Below, piece after piece: positions 5,545 through 16,710 of a stretch of 64,000 bases of DNA (positions are counted from its first letter, which is position 1; every line of letters starts with the position of its first letter). Position numbers and translations under genes: made by a program. The stretch is from positions 930,001-994,000 of the forward strand of contig NZ_AP026802.1 of assembly GCF_033095985.1 (NCBI RefSeq). Reading direction: 5' to 3'. The notes beneath the pieces are model-generated. The model saw only the letters and a list, made by a program, of their open reading frames with translations. It ran no database searches and was not told where the DNA came from. This DNA comes from Xylocopilactobacillus apicola. GTDB lineage: Bacteria; Bacillota; Bacilli; Lactobacillales; Lactobacillaceae.

Positions 5545-5576
5545 AAAGATCTACTGTGGTGAGTAGATCTTTTTTT
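5545..5576. terminator. Bidirectional terminator between MupG-like gene and the SMC operon
   Basis: An 11-bp perfect stem (AAAGATCTACT with its complement) around a 6-base loop, with T runs on both strands. It serves the two convergent genes and reaches the stop codon of the SMC gene. Confidence 0.88.
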
Positions 5577-8500
5577 AACGCCAGATTAGGGCGGGATAAA
5601 CGTTATTTAAATGGAATTTTCCATCATTTGTCTGAGTGGGTGCAATTACTTCATATGCGATATTTTCGACACCATCAGCAAGAATTTTGTTTTGAGCACC
5701 ATTTGGCATTGTAGCAATAAAACTAAATCCAAAATGTGAAATAGTTTGAGCAAAAGATTTAGCTGTTTCAGGATCTAATTTATCGGCAAATTCATCAAAC
5801 ATTACAAGATAAGGAGCATCCTTTAAATTAGCTTGCTGAAGAAGCATTTTTGGTACTAACAATAATGGAAGGACCATTGCTTGGGCTTTTTCGGCCCCTG
5901 AGCCCCCAGATTGGACAAATTTATCATCTACTTCTTCGTATTCGTCTTCGTTATTTTGGCGGCGCTTAATCAAAATTCTAAAATTAGACCATTGACGAGG
6001 GTCAAGAAGTTCTTGAGCCTGTTCATTAAAAGCTTCATCATCGTCGGCTAAATCAGTATTATTTGCTAAGCGTCGAAGACGTTGTTGAATTTCTGCTTGC
6101 AGCGCAGGTCGTTCGACCAATTCGGGATCGCAAGCTTCTTCAATTACTTTTTCCAAAACAGTTGATGGTTTCAGTTCAACTTTTAATTTAATGCTTTGAG
6201 CGTTTTCTGCCCCTTCATTTAAGATTTGGTTGTACTCTTTGATCACATTGTATTGTTCAGTAATGCGATTAATTGCCGCTGCTTCATAGGCTTTTTGGGA
6301 AACATCATTACCAGTTTCTAATGTTCTTAAAGCTTTGATAACACCTACTTCATCGGCGTGTAAAAAATTTAATGCTTGATTAAGATCGAAAGCAACAACT
6401 GTTAAATCGTTTTTTGTTGTTGTTCGTTGCTGACGCATTGCGCTAGCAATTTCTCCTTGCCCCCGTTCTTCGAAAATGGTATCCAATGCATTGCGGTCTA
6501 CTCCGTTTTGATCGTTGTGATGAATTAAATGACTAATAATGCCGCTAAGATCAGCAAAATTATTATTCTTAATTTCACTGCGATGTTGTTTTACAAAATT
6601 AAGTAAATCATCGACAGTTGCCAATTGGAGTTCATTGGGAAAATAGGGTGAAAGGTTTTTTAGATCTAATTCGATTACTGCATTAAGAACCGTTAGTTTT
6701 TGTTTCAAACGGTTCATTTGTAATTGTGCTGCCTTCATCTCTGCCTGAGTTTCATTAATTGTTTGGATTAAATTCTGTTGTTGTTCGCGATAATCATGAT
6801 ATCGTTTTTCAGCATCATCTAAAGCTTGATCAATTTCTGGATTATCTTTCAAACTGGCCGCTTTTTCTTTTAAATTCATGATTGAATTTTTAAGTTCAGA
6901 TACCTCTAAATCTGCTGGCATTTGATTTTTTAAGTTATCGATTAATTTGTTTAAATTGTTTTGCTCACTTTTTAGAGTGTTTTGTTGTTCCTGATATTGC
7001 TTAATTTTGTTTAAAACTCCGCTTAAATCTTTATTTGCTTGATCTAAAGAAGTTAGAAGTTCAGGGTGTTTAATCATCACAGTTAGATCAGGATGATTAT
7101 ATATAATTTCTTTTTGTTCATTAAGCAAGTCTTGATTCTGATCATTGATTTTAGATGTTCCAGCATCGTGAATATTACGATTGTCTTCAATTAGGCGGTT
7201 GTGAGCACGATTAGAAAGTGGTCCTTGCAATCTTTCGTTAATCTGTTGCTCCATTTGATTTTTCATTTCTTCAACAAAATTCACATTTAGACCGAGTTTA
7301 GTTATAGTTTGATTAATTGATTGATATTGATTATTAGCGTCTTTGATTTGATTTAGATATGTTTTTAAGTAGGCAGCAAACTCAAAAATATCGTCAGTAG
7401 CGAGTAATTTTTCTAAAGTACTTAAATTTTGACTTGTTATTGACTGTAATTTTTCTTTCAAGGGATCTAGTTCAGTAACTCTAATGTTTTTCTCAACATT
7501 CAGGCTCTCTTTTAATTGGTCGGTTATTTTGTCTAATCGGTGGTACAGTTCGTTTAGCTGATCTTGTTGTTTTTGAAAAGTAGTTAATTGCTGATTTTGA
7601 GTAACAATTTGGCCATTTAGAAAACTTTTAAGCTCAATTGAGGTTTTTTGTTCTGCCTTTTGAAATCTAAGATCGTCCAAATGAGTATTTGTACTTTTAA
7701 GTTGATCGTTAAGTTTTTGCTGGCTATAATTTAATTCTTTTAGCTTTTCTTGTGCTTGTTCAACCTTAATTTGTTCACTAGCGAAGTCATGATAGTTTTC
7801 GGTATAAGGATCAAGTAAGACTTCATTTAAATGATTTAAGTTTCGCCAAAAAATTTCTTGTTTAATTTTATCTAACCTTTTTTGACCAGATTTTAAATGT
7901 TCTAAAACTCCGTTCATACGGTTGACTTCTCGTTGACTGTTGGCAACTTTGTTAATTAGATCAGCATCGATGCCTTCCTGGGCATTTTTTAAAGAATCAC
8001 GAATCGGCGTAAAACGGGCACTACCAGCAGTTAAAATCGGAGATGCTAAAAGGCGATAAACATTGGCAAGTTTGCCAAGTGTTTCTCCATCGGTAAATCC
8101 GTAAACTTTTTGGGCGGCAAATTCTCGGTAATCAAGTGCTCGATCAAAGACAGTTAATTTGTCTTCTAAAGATTTGTTAGCTTGAATAAAATCTTCTTTA
8201 TTTAAGCCTTGATCGAACTGATCAGTAGTTACAAGATTGATCGGTTTATCCAGTTCATCGCTGATCACAATAAACCACCAAGTGGGCTTTTTATTATCCC
8301 CAACTATTCTTGTAGCGCCAAGACCTAAAATGATTTGCCTGGTGTCTGATTGCAAGTTTATATAGCTGTAACCAGTCCTTACTTTCATTGCTCCTGCACC
8401 CCAACCGAGGAGCATACTTTCAAAATTACGAGTATCACGAGCGCTGTTTCGAGGATTGATATCTTGATTTAATTTGTCAATCCCTTTTGCTGCATTGAAA

Positions 8501-8688
8501 GAAGGAGTCGAGATGGCACCGTCGATAAGCATCGGGAAAAAGCAGTTAGCAAGGGTAGTTTTACCGACAGCATTTTCGCCAATAAAAGTTATATTACCAG
8601 CTTTGGAAGCAGATAAATCTAATTTTACATATTTATTGAATTGGCGTAAATGGAAGCTTGTAGGGACTAGGTGTTGAAATAAATTCAT
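5575..8688 (-). CDS. SMC-like ATPase of a MksBEF/JetABC (Wadjet-type) condensin
   Basis: A 1037-residue MukB/MksB/JetC-like ATPase, third gene of the operon. Walker A is FIGENAVGKTTLAN (~residues 35-48). Long coiled-coil stretches cover about 270-460 and 530-720, with a hinge-like part between. The ABC signature is QSGGSGAEKAQAM (~930) and Walker B YLVMFDEFADKLD (~965). Such proteins form a DNA loop-extruding complex with a kleisin (JetA/MukF) and a MukE-like subunit. In Wadjet the fourth protein, JetD, cleaves plasmid DNA; no JetD gene is adjacent. GGAGCC precedes the ATG, 15 bases after the preceding gene. Family is clear; whether it is a defence or chromosome-organising system is not. Confidence 0.88.
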   Translation of the reverse strand: MNLFQHLVPTSFHLRQFNKYVKLDLSASKAGNITFIGENAVGKTTLANCFFPMLIDGAISTPSFNAAKGIDKLNQDINPRNSARDTRNFESMLLGWGAGAMKVRTGYSYINLQSDTRQIILGLGATRIVGDNKKPTWWFIVISDELDKPINLVTTDQFDQGLNKEDFIQANKSLEDKLTVFDRALDYREFAAQKVYGFTDGETLGKLANVYRLLASPILTAGSARFTPIRDSLKNAQEGIDADLINKVANSQREVNRMNGVLEHLKSGQKRLDKIKQEIFWRNLNHLNEVLLDPYTENYHDFASEQIKVEQAQEKLKELNYSQQKLNDQLKSTNTHLDDLRFQKAEQKTSIELKSFLNGQIVTQNQQLTTFQKQQDQLNELYHRLDKITDQLKESLNVEKNIRVTELDPLKEKLQSITSQNLSTLEKLLATDDIFEFAAYLKTYLNQIKDANNQYQSINQTITKLGLNVNFVEEMKNQMEQQINERLQGPLSNRAHNRLIEDNRNIHDAGTSKINDQNQDLLNEQKEIIYNHPDLTVMIKHPELLTSLDQANKDLSGVLNKIKQYQEQQNTLKSEQNNLNKLIDNLKNQMPADLEVSELKNSIMNLKEKAASLKDNPEIDQALDDAEKRYHDYREQQQNLIQTINETQAEMKAAQLQMNRLKQKLTVLNAVIELDLKNLSPYFPNELQLATVDDLLNFVKQHRSEIKNNNFADLSGIISHLIHHNDQNGVDRNALDTIFEERGQGEIASAMRQQRTTTKNDLTVVAFDLNQALNFLHADEVGVIKALRTLETGNDVSQKAYEAAAINRITEQYNVIKEYNQILNEGAENAQSIKLKVELKPSTVLEKVIEEACDPELVERPALQAEIQQRLRRLANNTDLADDDEAFNEQAQELLDPRQWSNFRILIKRRQNNEDEYEEVDDKFVQSGGSGAEKAQAMVLPLLLVPKMLLQQANLKDAPYLVMFDEFADKLDPETAKSFAQTISHFGFSFIATMPNGAQNKILADGVENIAYEVIAPTQTNDGKFHLNNVYPALIWR

Positions 8689-8703
8689 AAAAATAGGCTC
8701 CTT

Positions 8704-9699
8704 TTAGTTAGATAATTTGACATGAAATCTGTTTACGACAGGCGTTGCAATAATAAAGCCGTTGTTTTGAGTGGCAAGAGCTTGCTCAAATAATAGGCGT
8801 CTAACTTCGCTGATGCTAATTTGAAAATGAGGGAAATATTGTTTGGCTGTTTGCTGAATTAGCAAAGTTAAGCGAGATTTGGGCAAGCCAGCGGTTAGTG
8901 ATTGGGCGACCAAGATTGCAGTCATAAAAGCTTTTGATGAACTAGTGCGTCTTGAACGATCAAGTAATAAAGCATAGTCATCACCGCATTCTAAGTCAAA
9001 ACGTTTTAATTGTGCCCATTTTTGAGCGATTAAATCTTTATTTGAAATAAAGATTGACCAAAGATCATGAGATTGTTTTGAATCTAAATATTTATTTTCA
9101 AGTAAGAATCGATTAACACGTTGCAGGTCATTTAATTTATATTCCTCATCCTGCTTTAATAATAGGTTCACCAAGCATTGAGCAATGTAATTAAAATCGG
9201 GAGAAATATCCCAGTATTCAATTAATTCTTCATTAGAATCTTTAATAATTTCTTCTGGTAGTTCTGGTTTAAATAGTGCAAAACGATCAACAAACAAATT
9301 AGTTATTTGTTTTGCGATTTCTGATTCTCTTAATTCGGTAACCTCGCTATGGACAAGTTGAATAATCTTTTGAGTAGAAACAACCCGGTCTCCGTCAACG
9401 CCTTGTAATTCAGGTAAGTTTATCACTGCCTTTAAGGTAGCTAATAAAACATGAACTGTTTCAGGCGGGAGTTGTTCTTTATTTACCAAAAAAAGTAAAT
9501 TTTCTTGGTAATTTTCAGGAATTATTCCCAGCAGATCTTGAAGGTATTTATTAATTCTTTGTTGAACTAGTGGTCGCTTTAACACAGTAATAGCTCGAAG
9601 CGTGGTCTTGGTTAGTTCGGGGGTAATAGAACTTGTAAAAACGTTATGGTCGAGAAGCTGATTAATTATTAGACGTTCAGATGAATGTAATTCAGTCAC
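8704..9699 (-). CDS. MukE/MksE/JetB-like subunit of the condensin operon
   Basis: A 331-residue soluble protein between the kleisin and the SMC gene, the position of MksE/JetB. It begins VTELHSSERLIINQLLDHN and ends with a winged-helix-like region (LTLLIQQTAKQYFPHFQISI, then a segment ending PVVNRFHVKLSN). Similarity is judged from length, helical character and gene order rather than a strong motif. The GTG at 9699 follows a GGAAGG site and starts one base after the stop of the upstream gene, typical translational coupling. A longer reading from 9771 would overlap the upstream gene by 71 bases and is less likely. Confidence 0.72.
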   Translation of the reverse strand: MTELHSSERLIINQLLDHNVFTSSITPELTKTTLRAITVLKRPLVQQRINKYLQDLLGIIPENYQENLLFLVNKEQLPPETVHVLLATLKAVINLPELQGVDGDRVVSTQKIIQLVHSEVTELRESEIAKQITNLFVDRFALFKPELPEEIIKDSNEELIEYWDISPDFNYIAQCLVNLLLKQDEEYKLNDLQRVNRFLLENKYLDSKQSHDLWSIFISNKDLIAQKWAQLKRFDLECGDDYALLLDRSRRTSSSKAFMTAILVAQSLTAGLPKSRLTLLIQQTAKQYFPHFQISISEVRRLLFEQALATQNNGFIIATPVVNRFHVKLSN

Positions 9700-9700
9700 T

Positions 9701-11209
9701 TCAAATTTTTCCTTCCGCAAAACTGATTTCAAAACCTTGGGGTAAAAAAACACTAAACATTTCGCCTGCACAATGAAGACGAATTGAACTAATTTCAGGA
9801 ATTATTCTTACTTCCAATACGTTACGACCAAAAGGTGCAAAACTATCATAATGATCTGCTCTTGTTGCACTATATAACCGAACAATTTCGTCACGTGCAA
9901 TTTTTGTTTTGAACTCCAAATCATGATCAATTACAGCGTGTAAATCATCTCGCATAATAAGTTCCTTGATCTCGTCAAGAGCCGTTTGAGTGGTAATTTT
10001 TCCAAGATGGTCATCTACAATGATCGGATTGTCGTTTTCAGTGGCAATTTTTTTGATTCGAATATTTGCAACATATTCGACCGGTCCCATCGTTGAAGCA
10101 TCCAATAAGTCACTTGGATCAGCAAGAAGTCGATCTTGGGCGAGATGACGAGGTAGCTGAGCGGGCACATTTAAAGACTTAAAATCAGTTAATAATTGAT
10201 CAATTTTTGAAGTTAAGGCTTTTAAATCAATGGTTTGATTCTTAATGTGTTCATATTCTTGACTTAAAATTTGGATGGCTTTTAAAATAGTGTTAAAAAG
10301 TAAGTATACTGAATCTAAACTATTGTCGATTGCGCTTGTACTAGGATCTAAACTCTTTGCAAGTCGATCTAACTGCCGTTTAACATAAGCTTGAGTTTGA
10401 CGAAATCGTTGAGTAATTGCGTGTTGATCATTAATTGCCCGAGCAGTATCAAGATCGTCTTCCCCTTGTTGACTGTATGCAACTCGATTTCTAAAGCTTT
10501 CTGAATTAGCTAAAGTTTGAATTTTAGGAGCTTTGGCTAATAATTGCTGAAAAGCTGGGATGGCCTTTTCGTTTATCATCGTTTGGAGTTGTTTTGCTTC
10601 TTTACTACCATGATTGAAATTTAGATCGTTAATTAATTGATCTAAATCGTTATCTAGTTTATGCATTCCCTTCATGACATCGTCATAAGTATTGAGCATT
10701 TGAGCAAAATAGTTATAAAACTTTGTGCTTTGGGTTTCTGTTCGTTGATCAGCTAAAAGGTCAATTAAATTACAGTATTCATTGATTTGATTGATATTAG
10801 CTGTGACAGTGTTCTCGGCATCAACAACTTTTTGCATTAAATTTAGATATTCAATTCCACTACTGGTAATGTGATAAATAATGGATTGTCGAATGTGATA
10901 ATTACCATTTTTCATTCGCAGTCGGACTTTACGAGATGTTTGTTCAACTAGTTTTGCTTGTTCCGTTAGAATCAGCATGATGTGTTTCAACACATTTTCG
11001 GTAATTACTGGCTCTCCTTCATCAACATCAAGATAATTTGCATTGTAGCGATGTAATAAAAATTGAAGAGTCACTGGTTCACTGCTATTACTACCGTCGT
11101 GATATAAAATAGTTAATATATTCCAACCAGCTAATGGATGCTCTCGACTCTCACCAAGTCTGATTGCTACTAAGAGTTCTTTTAACGGTTTTGAAATTTT
11201 AATTGCGAT
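9701..11209 (-). CDS. Kleisin (MukF/MksF/JetA-like), first gene of the condensin operon; non-canonical start
   Basis: A protein of about 502 residues if started at ATC 11209. An N-terminal winged-helix region (~1-110) is followed by long helical/coiled-coil stretches and a C-terminal domain ending LPQGFEISFAEGKI. The first canonical start in frame is GTG 11074, but it has no SD and would remove ~45 residues that look like the start of the winged helix (KPLKELLVAIRLGE, then HPLAGWNILTILYH). GGAG at 11217-11220 lies seven bases before ATC 11207-11209. Between the upstream stop (11228-11230) and 11074 there is no in-frame ATG, GTG, TTG or CTG. Loss of one A in the AAAA at 11209-11212 would instead join an ATG at 11222 to this frame. 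Family by operon position and helical architecture. Confidence 0.7.
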   Translation of the reverse strand: MAIKISKPLKELLVAIRLGESREHPLAGWNILTILYHDGSNSSEPVTLQFLLHRYNANYLDVDEGEPVITENVLKHIMLILTEQAKLVEQTSRKVRLRMKNGNYHIRQSIIYHITSSGIEYLNLMQKVVDAENTVTANINQINEYCNLIDLLADQRTETQSTKFYNYFAQMLNTYDDVMKGMHKLDNDLDQLINDLNFNHGSKEAKQLQTMINEKAIPAFQQLLAKAPKIQTLANSESFRNRVAYSQQGEDDLDTARAINDQHAITQRFRQTQAYVKRQLDRLAKSLDPSTSAIDNSLDSVYLLFNTILKAIQILSQEYEHIKNQTIDLKALTSKIDQLLTDFKSLNVPAQLPRHLAQDRLLADPSDLLDASTMGPVEYVANIRIKKIATENDNPIIVDDHLGKITTQTALDEIKELIMRDDLHAVIDHDLEFKTKIARDEIVRLYSATRADHYDSFAPFGRNVLEVRIIPEISSIRLHCAGEMFSVFLPQGFEISFAEGKI

Positions 11210-12800: not shown

Positions 12801-12833
12801 TAACTCGCTAAAGTTAGATAGGACGGTTTTTTT
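12801..12833 (+). repeat. Left copy of a 33-bp direct repeat flanking the surface-protein gene
   Basis: It matches 16604-16636 at 30 of 33 positions, including an identical GATAGGACGG/AATAGGACGG core followed by seven T. The two copies bracket the phase-variable gene in the same orientation. They resemble the ends of an insertion element, but no transposase is present, so this is unproven. Confidence 0.75.
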
Positions 12834-13049: not shown

Positions 13050-13093
13050 ATCGATAATTAGTGAAGAGATAGCACAATTACGAGGAGATGACC

Positions 13094-16000
13094 ATGAAAC
13101 TAGTGAAGAAGTTGGGATATATTCTGGCAGTTTTAAGCGGAGTTTGGGTATTGAACTTTGCATTGAGCTTTAAACAGGACAGTAGAGCTGCAGATTTTCC
13201 GACAAATGTAGCAGTATTAACAGATGGTAGCGATTTCAGGGGGGGGGCAATTAGCTAACTCCTCTCGATCTGCTTTTGTAGAGCCAGGCTCATTAATAAA
13301 ACCAAGAAGTGGACTTAGTCCGATTAATGTTGGTTTAGGCGATACCCAAAATTTTTTTGCAACTGTTGGGACAGCTGTTTCGAAAGTAAATGATAATGGT
13401 ACATGGGATACTATTCAAATTAATGAAGCTAAATCTTATCAAGTAGGTGCTGTAACTCTCAACTCTACATTAGATATGACAAAAGATTTTAATTTTAGTT
13501 GGGATTTAAAAATTGAACCACCTACATGGACGTTTTTGTGTGATGGTATAGGTTTTGTTTTGCACCCTCTATATAAATCGGGTGAGAGAATTATAGATTC
13601 TAAAGGAAGTCCTGATTATATACTTCCATTGGTTTTTGGAAGACATTCTGATAATTCTTCTGTTACACTCTCTGATGACGTTGATAATGGTCAAAATATT
13701 CATTCATTAGGTTATAGCGGGGGTAATCTTGGGATTAGCGATTTAATGAATGCAATTGGGTTTAAAGTTGATACTTATAATGATGATAGTAGCATTGTTG
13801 GTATTAACTATATTCATGGAACGCCTTATGGAAGTCAATCTCATTCTCTTACCCAAGTTTTAGATATTGACGATGTATTTGCTTACGGGAGTCCTTGGAA
13901 TGTCAATAATACATACGGTGCTTTTGTAACGACTGATAGTAATGGATATGCGGGAAAAGCTCAATATTCTGCACCTTTAAATGGGATGTCAGTAACTCCG
14001 AAAAATGATGCATTTGGAAGCGTTAGTGGTAAACCATTAAATATTCCCGATTATAATTGGCATCCGATGTCAATGTCGTATAATGCTAGTACTTATACAT
14101 TACAAGTGGTAGTGGGAGATCCTGCTATAGGTGGTTCAGTTTGGACTAAGACATTTAATTCACTTGAAAGAGCAGTTATTGCCGATCGTTCAAACTGGGC
14201 ATTTTCAATTTTAGGAACAACGGGTCAAGGCACTGAAAGTAACACAATTAGAAATGTAAGAGGAAGTTATACACCCGGAGATCCAGTAATTACAACTCGT
14301 TATGTTGACGAAAACGGCAATGATTTACAAGCTGCAAAATCAACAATTTTATCAGATTGGCAAATTCAACATCCGGGTTCAACACAATTTATTGATACCA
14401 GCAGTCCGCTTACAATTGTAAAAAATGGGAAAACATATCGCCGAGCACAGGTTAATGGCACATTTTTTGATAATGGAACGAGAATTAATAAACGTTTAGG
14501 GACACCAGGAAGTGGGGGAACCGTCACAACTTCAGGAAATACGGTAACCGTTGGAACCGAATTTAACGGCGTCACTTTTGTCAATTACGTTTACCGGCAG
14601 GATTTACCAACAGGCAGTGCTGACATTTCAGCAGATCTTCAGCTTAGTGTTAATAGTGGAACGTTTAGTAAAGTTGCGACAATTAGACCGGGGGACAATG
14701 TAATATTTAAATACACCGCAAAGAATAATGTGATTCCGATTTGGTCCAAGGTCACAGCAGTTCAATCACTAGGCGGCTTATTTACCACGGTTGGAACGTT
14801 ACCGGCAGATGTCATTCAAAAAAATGGATTTCTTTATATTCCATTGAAGCTGGGAACTACTAATGATTTGAAGTTGGGGGAAACAGGAACCAACACGATT
14901 ACGATGAAATACAACGGATGGAATAACGCTCAATTGACTGCTAATGATGCAGGTCAAATAACAATCACTTCATCTCCTGCGAGTCCAAGCGCAGCTCCGT
15001 TATCAAAGATTGTGACAAAAGTAGCGATTTATGATCAATCGAGTCAATTAATTGATGAAAATGGAGATCCATTCTTCGGTTCATATTTTTATAGCGCAAG
15101 TAATAATAAATCACCACTGGCTAGCACAGATCTGGTGTATAACACTGGAAACTATGCGCCAGCTACTGATGCAGTGACTCTAAATGATCAGGGTTGGTGG
15201 TATCTTGATCCAATCACTAAAGTTTTGACGATTTACCCACATGAATTAAACGGTTCGGTGGATACAACGGGAGCTTCTGTTTGGCCTTGGCATGGACAAG
15301 CGGCAGATATTACAAAAGTGGTAATTAAACCGGGAGTAACAGCTCGTGGATCACTTCATAATCTATTTGCTGATCTCATGAATGCTACATCAATTGAAGG
15401 ACTCGACGCTTTGAATACTGCTAACGTCACCGATATGAACGCGATGTTTGCCCATTGTCAAAAGGTGACTAGTCTTGATGTGAGCCATTTCAATACCACA
15501 AATGTGACAGACATGAATAGTATGTTTAATGACTGTAATTTGTTAACGAGCTTGAATTTGAGTAGCTTTGTTACGAACCAGGTTACCAGCATGCGGGGCA
15601 TGTTCCAGGCTTGTACAGGGATCACTGAGTTGGATCTCAACAGTTTCAACACCAGCTTAGTACAAGATTTTAGTTACATGTTTAACGAAATGCATGGATT
15701 AAAGAAGCTGAACGTAACGAGCTTTAATACATCAAGTGCCACCGACATGACGGTAATGTTTGCGCACATGTCGGTGCTTCCGAGTCTTGATCTTAGTAGT
15801 TTTAACACAAGTAGTGTTACAACGATGACTTCAATGTTTGATGGTAGTTCAAAGCTTTGGCAACTGACGCTTGGGAGTACTTCTAAATTGGCAGCAGATT
15901 GTGGTTTAACAGATCCGGCAGTTGAGACGGAGATTGTAGATGCAGGCACAACATATTACGTGACAAATCCGAATTGGCGTGAAGTTGGAGTAGGAGGAAC

Positions 16001-16505
16001 GGCTCACGATCCCAAGGAAACAGCAAAGACTGCCGCTCAGATTATCAGTGACTCAGCGACTGCTACGGGTACTAGAATTTACGTTTGGGATCAAATCGGT
16101 AAGCAGGCTTTAGCGACAACGGGAAATATTGATTTTGGGGTACATCGTGGATCCCTTCGAGAGCATAATCACAGCAGCTCCGTTCAGAATTTCAACATTA
16201 CTGACAACCGAAATTCCCGCAACGGAAAAGTCTGGCGCGTCGAAGCGGCAGTGACTAAACAATTTGAACTTGCCAGCGACGCTACGAAGAAGATCTCAGG
16301 CAATCCGCTCTACTTCCAAAATAATGGCCTTACGACTAATCTCACCTCAACGGCTCAGACTGTGTATAACGGGACGGCAGGTAGTGGCTATCAAGACGCA
16401 CTTGCGATTCCTTGGAGCTTGAGCTTTAAAGCACATTCAAACGATATTCCGGCTCCGGGTCAATACAAGGCGACCGTGACGTATACTTTAGTTAACGTGC
16501 CTTGA
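13094..16505 (+). CDS. Phase-variable lectin/MucBP/BspA-LRR/WxL-like surface protein, frame broken at a G9 tract
   Basis: GAGGAG stands before ATG 13094, which opens a signal peptide (MKLVKKLGYILAVLSG, then VWVLNFALSF, cleavage near SRAA). With nine G at 13239-13247 this frame stops at 13256-13258 after 54 residues. With eight G it runs into the long frame and gives 1136 residues. Domains of the joined protein: an L-type lectin-like domain (~90-345), a MucBP-like domain (~355-460), about five BspA/DUF285 repeats of the NTxxVTDMxxMF pattern (~765-925) and a C-terminal WxL-like domain (~975-1136; WRVEAAV and YTLVNVP replace the usual WxL words). Family members are secreted, bind peptidoglycan non-covalently and are thought to act in adhesion. 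The ATG at 13224 has no ribosome site or signal peptide. The state seen is OFF. Confidence 0.85.
13239..13247 (+). repeat. Poly-G tract (G9), predicted slipped-strand switch
   Basis: Nine consecutive G in an AT-rich genome, located 48 codons into the reading frame just after the signal peptide. G8 (or G11) joins the signal peptide to the lectin domain; G9 and G10 do not. Homopolymer G tracts in coding sequence are classic contingency loci. Confidence 0.85.
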
Positions 16506-16710
16506 TTGTGTACCCTGCGTGATATATATTTAGTTACAAAAAGAGCCGGTGCGTCTACACCAGCTCGATGTGAGCCACTTTATGGCAATAATACCCGTTC
16601 CTATAACTCGCCAAAGTTGAATAGGACGGTTTTTTTGTTAATTTTCGCTATCAAGATGGTTGCAACACGTCATCAACGAGATGAGACTTATGTCACAGCC
16701 TCAAGAAAAT
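16506..16710. other. Intergenic stretch after the surface-protein gene
   Basis: Holds an imperfect hairpin (16543-16551 with 16558-16566, one mismatch, no T run) and the right copy of the 33-bp repeat. An open frame starting directly after the stop shows no domain or ribosome site. Confidence 0.5.
16604..16636 (+). repeat. Right copy of the 33-bp direct repeat
   Basis: Starts TAACTCGCCAAAGTTG and ends AATAGGACGG plus seven T. It differs from 12801-12833 at three positions and has the same orientation. The sequence beyond the T run is unlike that after the left copy. Confidence 0.75.

Follow-up and report, generated by a model that had tools for sequence, protein, structure and literature searches.

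The poly-G contingency set is a classic feature of pathogens, Neisseria and Campylobacter among them, and the poly-G or poly-C contingency genes of these two genera are experimentally proven switches (PMC9187656 cites them). In Bifidobacterium breve UCC2003, G-tract switching has been shown experimentally for the pilus loci bbr_0113 and bbr_1889, and the slippage was measured (PMC9187656). An N-terminal poly-G has been noted in two PARCEL (DUF285) lipoproteins of Mycoplasma agalactiae, MAG1330 and MAG3260 (PMC2996958), and adhesin phase variation by frameshift has been speculated for the L. casei group (PMC5566788). We found no report of a multi-locus poly-G set in Lactobacillaceae in the literature searched.

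Xylocopilactobacillus apicola XA3 and X. apis KimC2 are NAD-auxotrophic bacteria of the carpenter-bee gut, sequenced with PacBio only (PMC10433979). We scanned the genome of X. apicola (G000, a single contig of 2,311,735 bp), which we take to be strain XA3, and that of a sister species (G001, 2,271,855 bp), which we take to be X. apis KimC2; both assignments are very likely, although the name is inferred. A real NAD synthase was absent from both genomes (the best matches, with E about 1e-11 and 1e-9, were long proteins of another kind), and most relatives had one at E 1e-63 or better. The absence agrees with the NAD auxotrophy (PMC10433979).

The locus described here lies in a 64-kb stretch of the X. 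apicola genome (the whole stretch of DNA that was analysed, referred to as the window), and its features are collected in Table 1. A first-pass annotation of the window had proposed that nine Gs at 13239-13247 separate a signal-peptide frame, stopping at 13256-13258, from a surface-protein frame, and that removal of one G would give a single protein of 1136 residues. All of this held. The G9 lies between a frame of 54 codons and one of 1093 codons, and frame computation indicated that the two fuse into 1136 aa when the tract has 8 Gs, or equally 5 or 11. It also held that the signal-peptide ORF has a good ribosome site and the 1093-codon ORF has none. The 13094 frame translates as MKLVKKLGYILAVLSGVWVLNFALSFKQDSRAADFP...SDFRGGAIS up to its TAA, and signal-peptide cleavage is predicted near SRA/A, at about codon 32-33. 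An AGGAG/GGGAG-type ribosome site was observed upstream of most sister loci, and the paralogues have a conserved signal-peptide ending, KAADFP. The locus is OFF in the assembled sequence, although the exact tract length could be an assembly error.

Table 1. Coordinates of the features of the poly-G locus in the window
Feature	Position	Strand	Basis
Ribosome-binding site GAGGAG of the signal-peptide ORF	13082..13087	+	Sequence
Signal-peptide frame, ATG 13094, 54 codons and stop in the OFF (G9) state	13094..13258	+	Translation
G9 tract, proposed slippage switch; ON length here 8 (or 5, 11)	13239..13247	+	Sequence, frame computation
TAG stop reached if the tract is one G longer (G10 frame)	13252..13254	+	Frame computation
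TAA stop reached in the present G9 frame	13256..13258	+	Translation
Surface-protein body, intact to the C-terminus	13248..16505	+	Mechanical ORF 13224-16505, 1093 aa
L-type (legume-type) lectin domain	13311..14279	+	PF18483 E 9e-25, 88.2 bits (cut-off 78.3)
Weak SSSPR-51/MucBP-like stretch	14289..14552	+	PF18877 15.8 bits (cut-off 27), PF06458 10.2 bits (cut-off 23)
DUF285/PARCEL 26-residue LRR-like repeats, best Pfam stretch	15354..15689	+	PF03382 E 2e-29, 102 bits
C-terminal beta-sandwich, WxL-like sequence pattern	16101..16502	+	Model pLDDT 91; anchoring role inferred

We also considered the ATG at 13224 as a true leaderless internal start. This is unlikely: the ATG has no ribosome site, and AATGGTAGC is accounted for by the conserved Asn-Gly-Ser codons. 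The promoter scan called no convincing promoter upstream of 13094, and the Rfam search returned nothing real.

A 33-nt direct repeat (91%) was seen on both sides of the gene, at 12801-12833 and 16604-16636. Its core was found only next to family genes, in both genomes, and also flanks the sister-species orthologue, whose outer neighbourhood differs. The repeat may have been left by a tandem duplication, or may mark a gene unit that can move. Elsewhere in the window, a JetC/MukB-like gene with two upstream ORFs (5575-11074, - strand) might represent a Wadjet-type defence operon; the ORFs at 8704-9771 and 9701-11074 (- strand) overlap in a stretch with an A7 run at 9744, where a frame break is possible.

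The domain set first assigned to the protein (lectin, MucBP, BspA-LRR and WxL-like) was borne out in part. The lectin claim held: PF18483 exceeded its cut-off, and the domain model matched SraP (4m01; Z 24.7, rmsd 2.5, 237 residues) and YwfG (7yl6; Z 23.9). The Pfam match and the model establish an L-type lectin fold for 13311..14279; sugar binding is only inferred, and there are no binding data. The BspA-LRR claim held partly, in that the protein has LRR-like repeats, which are better named DUF285/PARCEL. TIGR02167 matched in 6 stretches (E 8e-40, 134 bits) as tandem repeats of 25-26 residues, and the BspA-type LRR PF13306 remained below cut-off in this protein (15.1 vs 27.7 bits). The MucBP claim is weak, as PF06458 did not reach its cut-off (10.2 vs 23 bits) and only a faint stretch remains. 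For the WxL-like claim, PF13731 gave no match in the protein and weak matches in the C-termini of 14 of 46 relatives (best E 1e-4). The pattern PWxLxF...YxATVTYTL, which is motif-like, is conserved at the family C-terminus. The best solved-fold matches of the C-terminal sandwich were pilin-type sandwiches (Z about 9), and a sequence search of solved structures with the C-terminus found no match. When 30 family members were scanned, the lectin was present in 11 and the DUF285 repeats in all 30, and the putative switch set therefore spans different binding modules behind one type of 5' end.

The claim that a long G run is unlikely by chance was upheld. No G or C run in the 64-kb window exceeds 6 apart from the G9 at 13239-13247, and under a Markov model 0.03-0.05 G runs of at least 9 are expected per window on this strand. 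Across the genomes we observed 13 G runs of at least 8 in X. apicola and 11 in the sister species, and every one of them (13/13 and 11/11) sits on the coding strand at the 5' end of a member of one lectin/PARCEL-repeat surface-protein family, which comprises 64 paralogous ORFs across both genomes. The other G runs of at least 7 were isolated G7 runs only (six in X. apicola, four in the sister species). At 22 of the 24 tracts the order was the same, with the signal peptide (KAADFP end) followed by NGSDFR or NGSVSR codons, the G tract and the body. The two tracts outside this canonical place are a point against the phase switch: the tract of G000_1811282 is inside a 114-codon relic ORF, followed by a paralogue that has a start of its own, and that of G001_724767 is upstream of the likely signal peptide. 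AGG accounts for 7% of the Arg codons and GGG for 14% of the Gly codons in the window, and since these codons are rare, the protein sequence does not demand the G tract. In G000_101564, a paralogue without a tract, this signal peptide is read in frame with the body (SDFKGALDN), which shows the intended continuous product of the tract genes.

In the family genes at G000:C1:263514 and 795674 (L118, L124), the tract is broken by an A (GGAGGGGGAGGG, GGGGGGAGGG); these could be switches locked by the interruption. A scan of 84,980 species with the exact motif plus G8 (own-genus records excluded) gave one chance-level match, in Phocaeicola, and no relative was found in viral contigs searched with the lectin part.

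We then compared the frames at the 22 canonical loci. The ON length was 8 (mod 3) at 19 of these, and tract length put 7 loci ON (in frame) and 15 OFF. X. apicola had three ON loci (462018, G8; 485291, G9; 1486013, G8) and nine OFF; at 485291, a C-to-G change beside the tract makes it a G9 without shifting the frame. In the sister species, the four ON loci were each G8 and the six OFF loci each G9. The 7/22 fits the one third expected from three equally likely frames, i.e. from free switching. Both wrong frames met a stop within 17 nt past the tract at all 22 loci, and in 19 of them these stops ended at exactly 7 and 11 nt. At random positions in the same ORFs, both frames stopped within 17 nt in 13% and within 11 nt in 4%. 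The loci are related, and hence these counts are not independent trials. Quick wrong-frame stops, formed from different bases, were also present at the divergent locus 329806.

Tract length was compared among paralogues and among orthologues across the two species, with no second strain or reads. G001_1516476 (G8, ON) and G001_1577761 (G9, OFF) were identical over the 20 nt that precede the tract and the 62 nt that follow it. The flanks of G001_728701 (G9) and G001_1682158 (G8) matched at 91 and 94 of 100 bases, and the orthologues G000_1729325 and G001_1888324 had G10 and G9, respectively. Tract length has changed more rapidly than the surrounding sequence. Such single-G differences are the signature expected of slippage, though some may be assembly errors. 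The proteins of G001_1516476 and G001_1577761 (L101, L103) were just 59% identical despite the 82 identical nt around the tract; this identity likely reflects a gene-conversion patch carrying the switch module.

The reciprocal best match of the gene at 13094-16505 was G001_1763371, and both are G9 and OFF. Over 1084 codons, pN was 0.153 and pS 0.70 (pN/pS 0.22), with dN/dS about 0.09 and dS close to saturation. In two further OFF/OFF orthologue pairs the pN/pS values were 0.025/0.228 and 0.055/0.158 (0.11 and 0.35). The three pairs had 1018-1194 codons intact, with whole bodies and C-termini. The OFF/OFF orthologues are thus under purifying selection and are therefore not pseudogenes.

Could the frame break be an error of the assembly? 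The real tract would then be G8 and the gene simply ON, with the other G9 and G10 loci likewise errors. In favour of this, both assemblies are apparently PacBio-only (PMC10433979), a kind in which most residual errors are homopolymer indels. However, among 68 homopolymers of at least 7 in ORFs of the window, the sole clear frame break was this G9. G8, G9 and G10 all occur, and the G9 at 485291 is in frame via its adjacent C-to-G change. The explanation also leaves the out-of-frame stops and the family-only occurrence of the tracts unaccounted for. An error in the exact length at 13239-13247 remains possible, yet it cannot account for the whole set, and we consider this rival very unlikely.

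A fixed pseudogene, in which a G insertion inactivated a gene that is now decaying, would agree with the broken frame in the assembly and with an ORF behind it that lacks its own ribosome site. However, the 1093-codon body is intact. Its orthologue in the sister species is G9/OFF as well, yet pN/pS is 0.22 and there is no second lesion, and two more OFF/OFF pairs are likewise selected. The comparison of OFF/OFF pairs contradicts the accumulation of downstream mutations that the first-pass annotation had named as a mark of this alternative, which is all but excluded. Recoding, i.e. slippage of RNA polymerase or the ribosome on the G run so that some full-length protein is made whatever the DNA length, would hold the OFF genes under selection, and RNA-level slippage can occur on long homopolymers. 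Against it, G8 needs no shift, G9 a -1 and G10 a +1 shift, so that no single programmed shift serves all, and the stops that follow at once in either wrong frame, which are conserved, favour a tight OFF. Recoding is also highly improbable.

These comparisons have led us to conclude that 13094-16505 is likely a phase-variable (contingency) locus of a surface-lectin repertoire, working by slipped-strand mispairing, with the switching itself inferred. The comparison strongly supports the phase-switch reading originally proposed, through two dozen tracts in two species, their fixed position, the mixed frames, the fail-safe stops, the selection on OFF copies and the single-G differences, all of which are shown. 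For the claim of on/off adhesion, both the switching and the adhesion are inferred only. In the proposed mechanism, slipped-strand mispairing during replication would add or remove single Gs in the tract, which is located just past the signal-peptide cleavage site. A tract of 8 Gs (5 and 11 are equivalent) would place the signal peptide in frame with the lectin/PARCEL body of ~1090 codons, and the cell would export the protein and display it. At G9 or G10, translation would end at a stop no more than 11 nt past the tract, yielding just a stub of some 54 residues. Since the same module occurs in about a dozen X. apicola paralogues and ten of the sister species, each cell would present a random surface subset. 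Slippage in growth, export only in the ON state, wall attachment or surface display, glycan binding and a benefit to the bacterium are all inferences. Loss of mismatch repair as the cause of tract instability was rejected because both genomic repair genes checked, mutS and mutL, are there in intact form; that slippage gets no help from a repair defect is a point against the phase switch.

A bolder reading, taken as one claim, would be a combinatorial surface code run by the genus, in which roughly a dozen lectin/PARCEL genes per genome with a common G-tract module, exchanging gene-conversion patches and with about a third shown by each cell independently of the others, would give thousands of surface types per bee gut. 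We would neither favour nor dismiss it at present.

We also sampled 20 poly-G regions from other Lactobacillaceae. Two genera among these (G170 and G130) have unrelated genes of the same design. In L148 (G170:C1:1495000-1500500), a YSIRK-like signal peptide leads to a G10 at a frame break and then to a Pectate_lyase_5/RibLong adhesin of 1000+ codons, and this may be an independent poly-G switch. In L141, L142 and L143 (G130:C1), runs of G10, G12 and G12 fall within the signal-peptide coding region of three surface-protein genes, one with SdrD_B/SpaA-like domains; these form a second family with poly-G, in a different genus. In genus g38 (L144, L145, L146, L155), repeated short ORFs of the form MKI..LEN.GGG... 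carry G8-G21 after TTAGAAAA. The genes of G170 and G130 suggest that the habit of combining signal, poly-G and adhesin may be wider.

If our reading is true, insect-gut symbionts too gamble with their surface, with a set of about two dozen tracts in two species of host-restricted, seemingly harmless lactic acid bacteria. The Xylocopilactobacillus set would offer a culturable and non-pathogenic system on the drivers of phase variation (host glycans, phages, competition, immunity). Annotation pipelines are liable to miss such proteins, or to label them truncated, leaderless or pseudogenes.

Among the known systems, SraP (Staphylococcus) and YwfG (Lactococcus lactis) have the same predicted lectin fold (27-29% identity over about 230 residues), but the remaining architecture differs and no G-tract switch is described for them in the literature searched. 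The Neisseria and Campylobacter genes, like those of Xylocopilactobacillus, have an intragenic G tract, an ON/OFF surface trait and several loci per genome, but the proteins and phyla are unrelated. The M. agalactiae proteins are lipoprotein-anchored in a wall-less cell, and two genes are named (PMC2996958), whereas Xylocopilactobacillus is walled and its two species together have 22 loci, with Sec signals and lectin domains. The pili of B. breve resemble the X. apicola set in that Sec signal and body are separate ORFs and the length of a G tract decides whether they are joined (ON) or split (PMC9187656), and B. breve too is a commensal gut Gram-positive. However, B. breve has one or two sortase-dependent pilus operons with LPXTG pilins and G11-G12 tracts (PMC9187656), whereas each Xylocopilactobacillus genome has about a dozen single lectin/PARCEL genes, paralogous to one another, with G8-G10, and the slippage there is inferred. 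The principle is thus already known; within the literature searched, the host group, the protein type and the number of loci are new.
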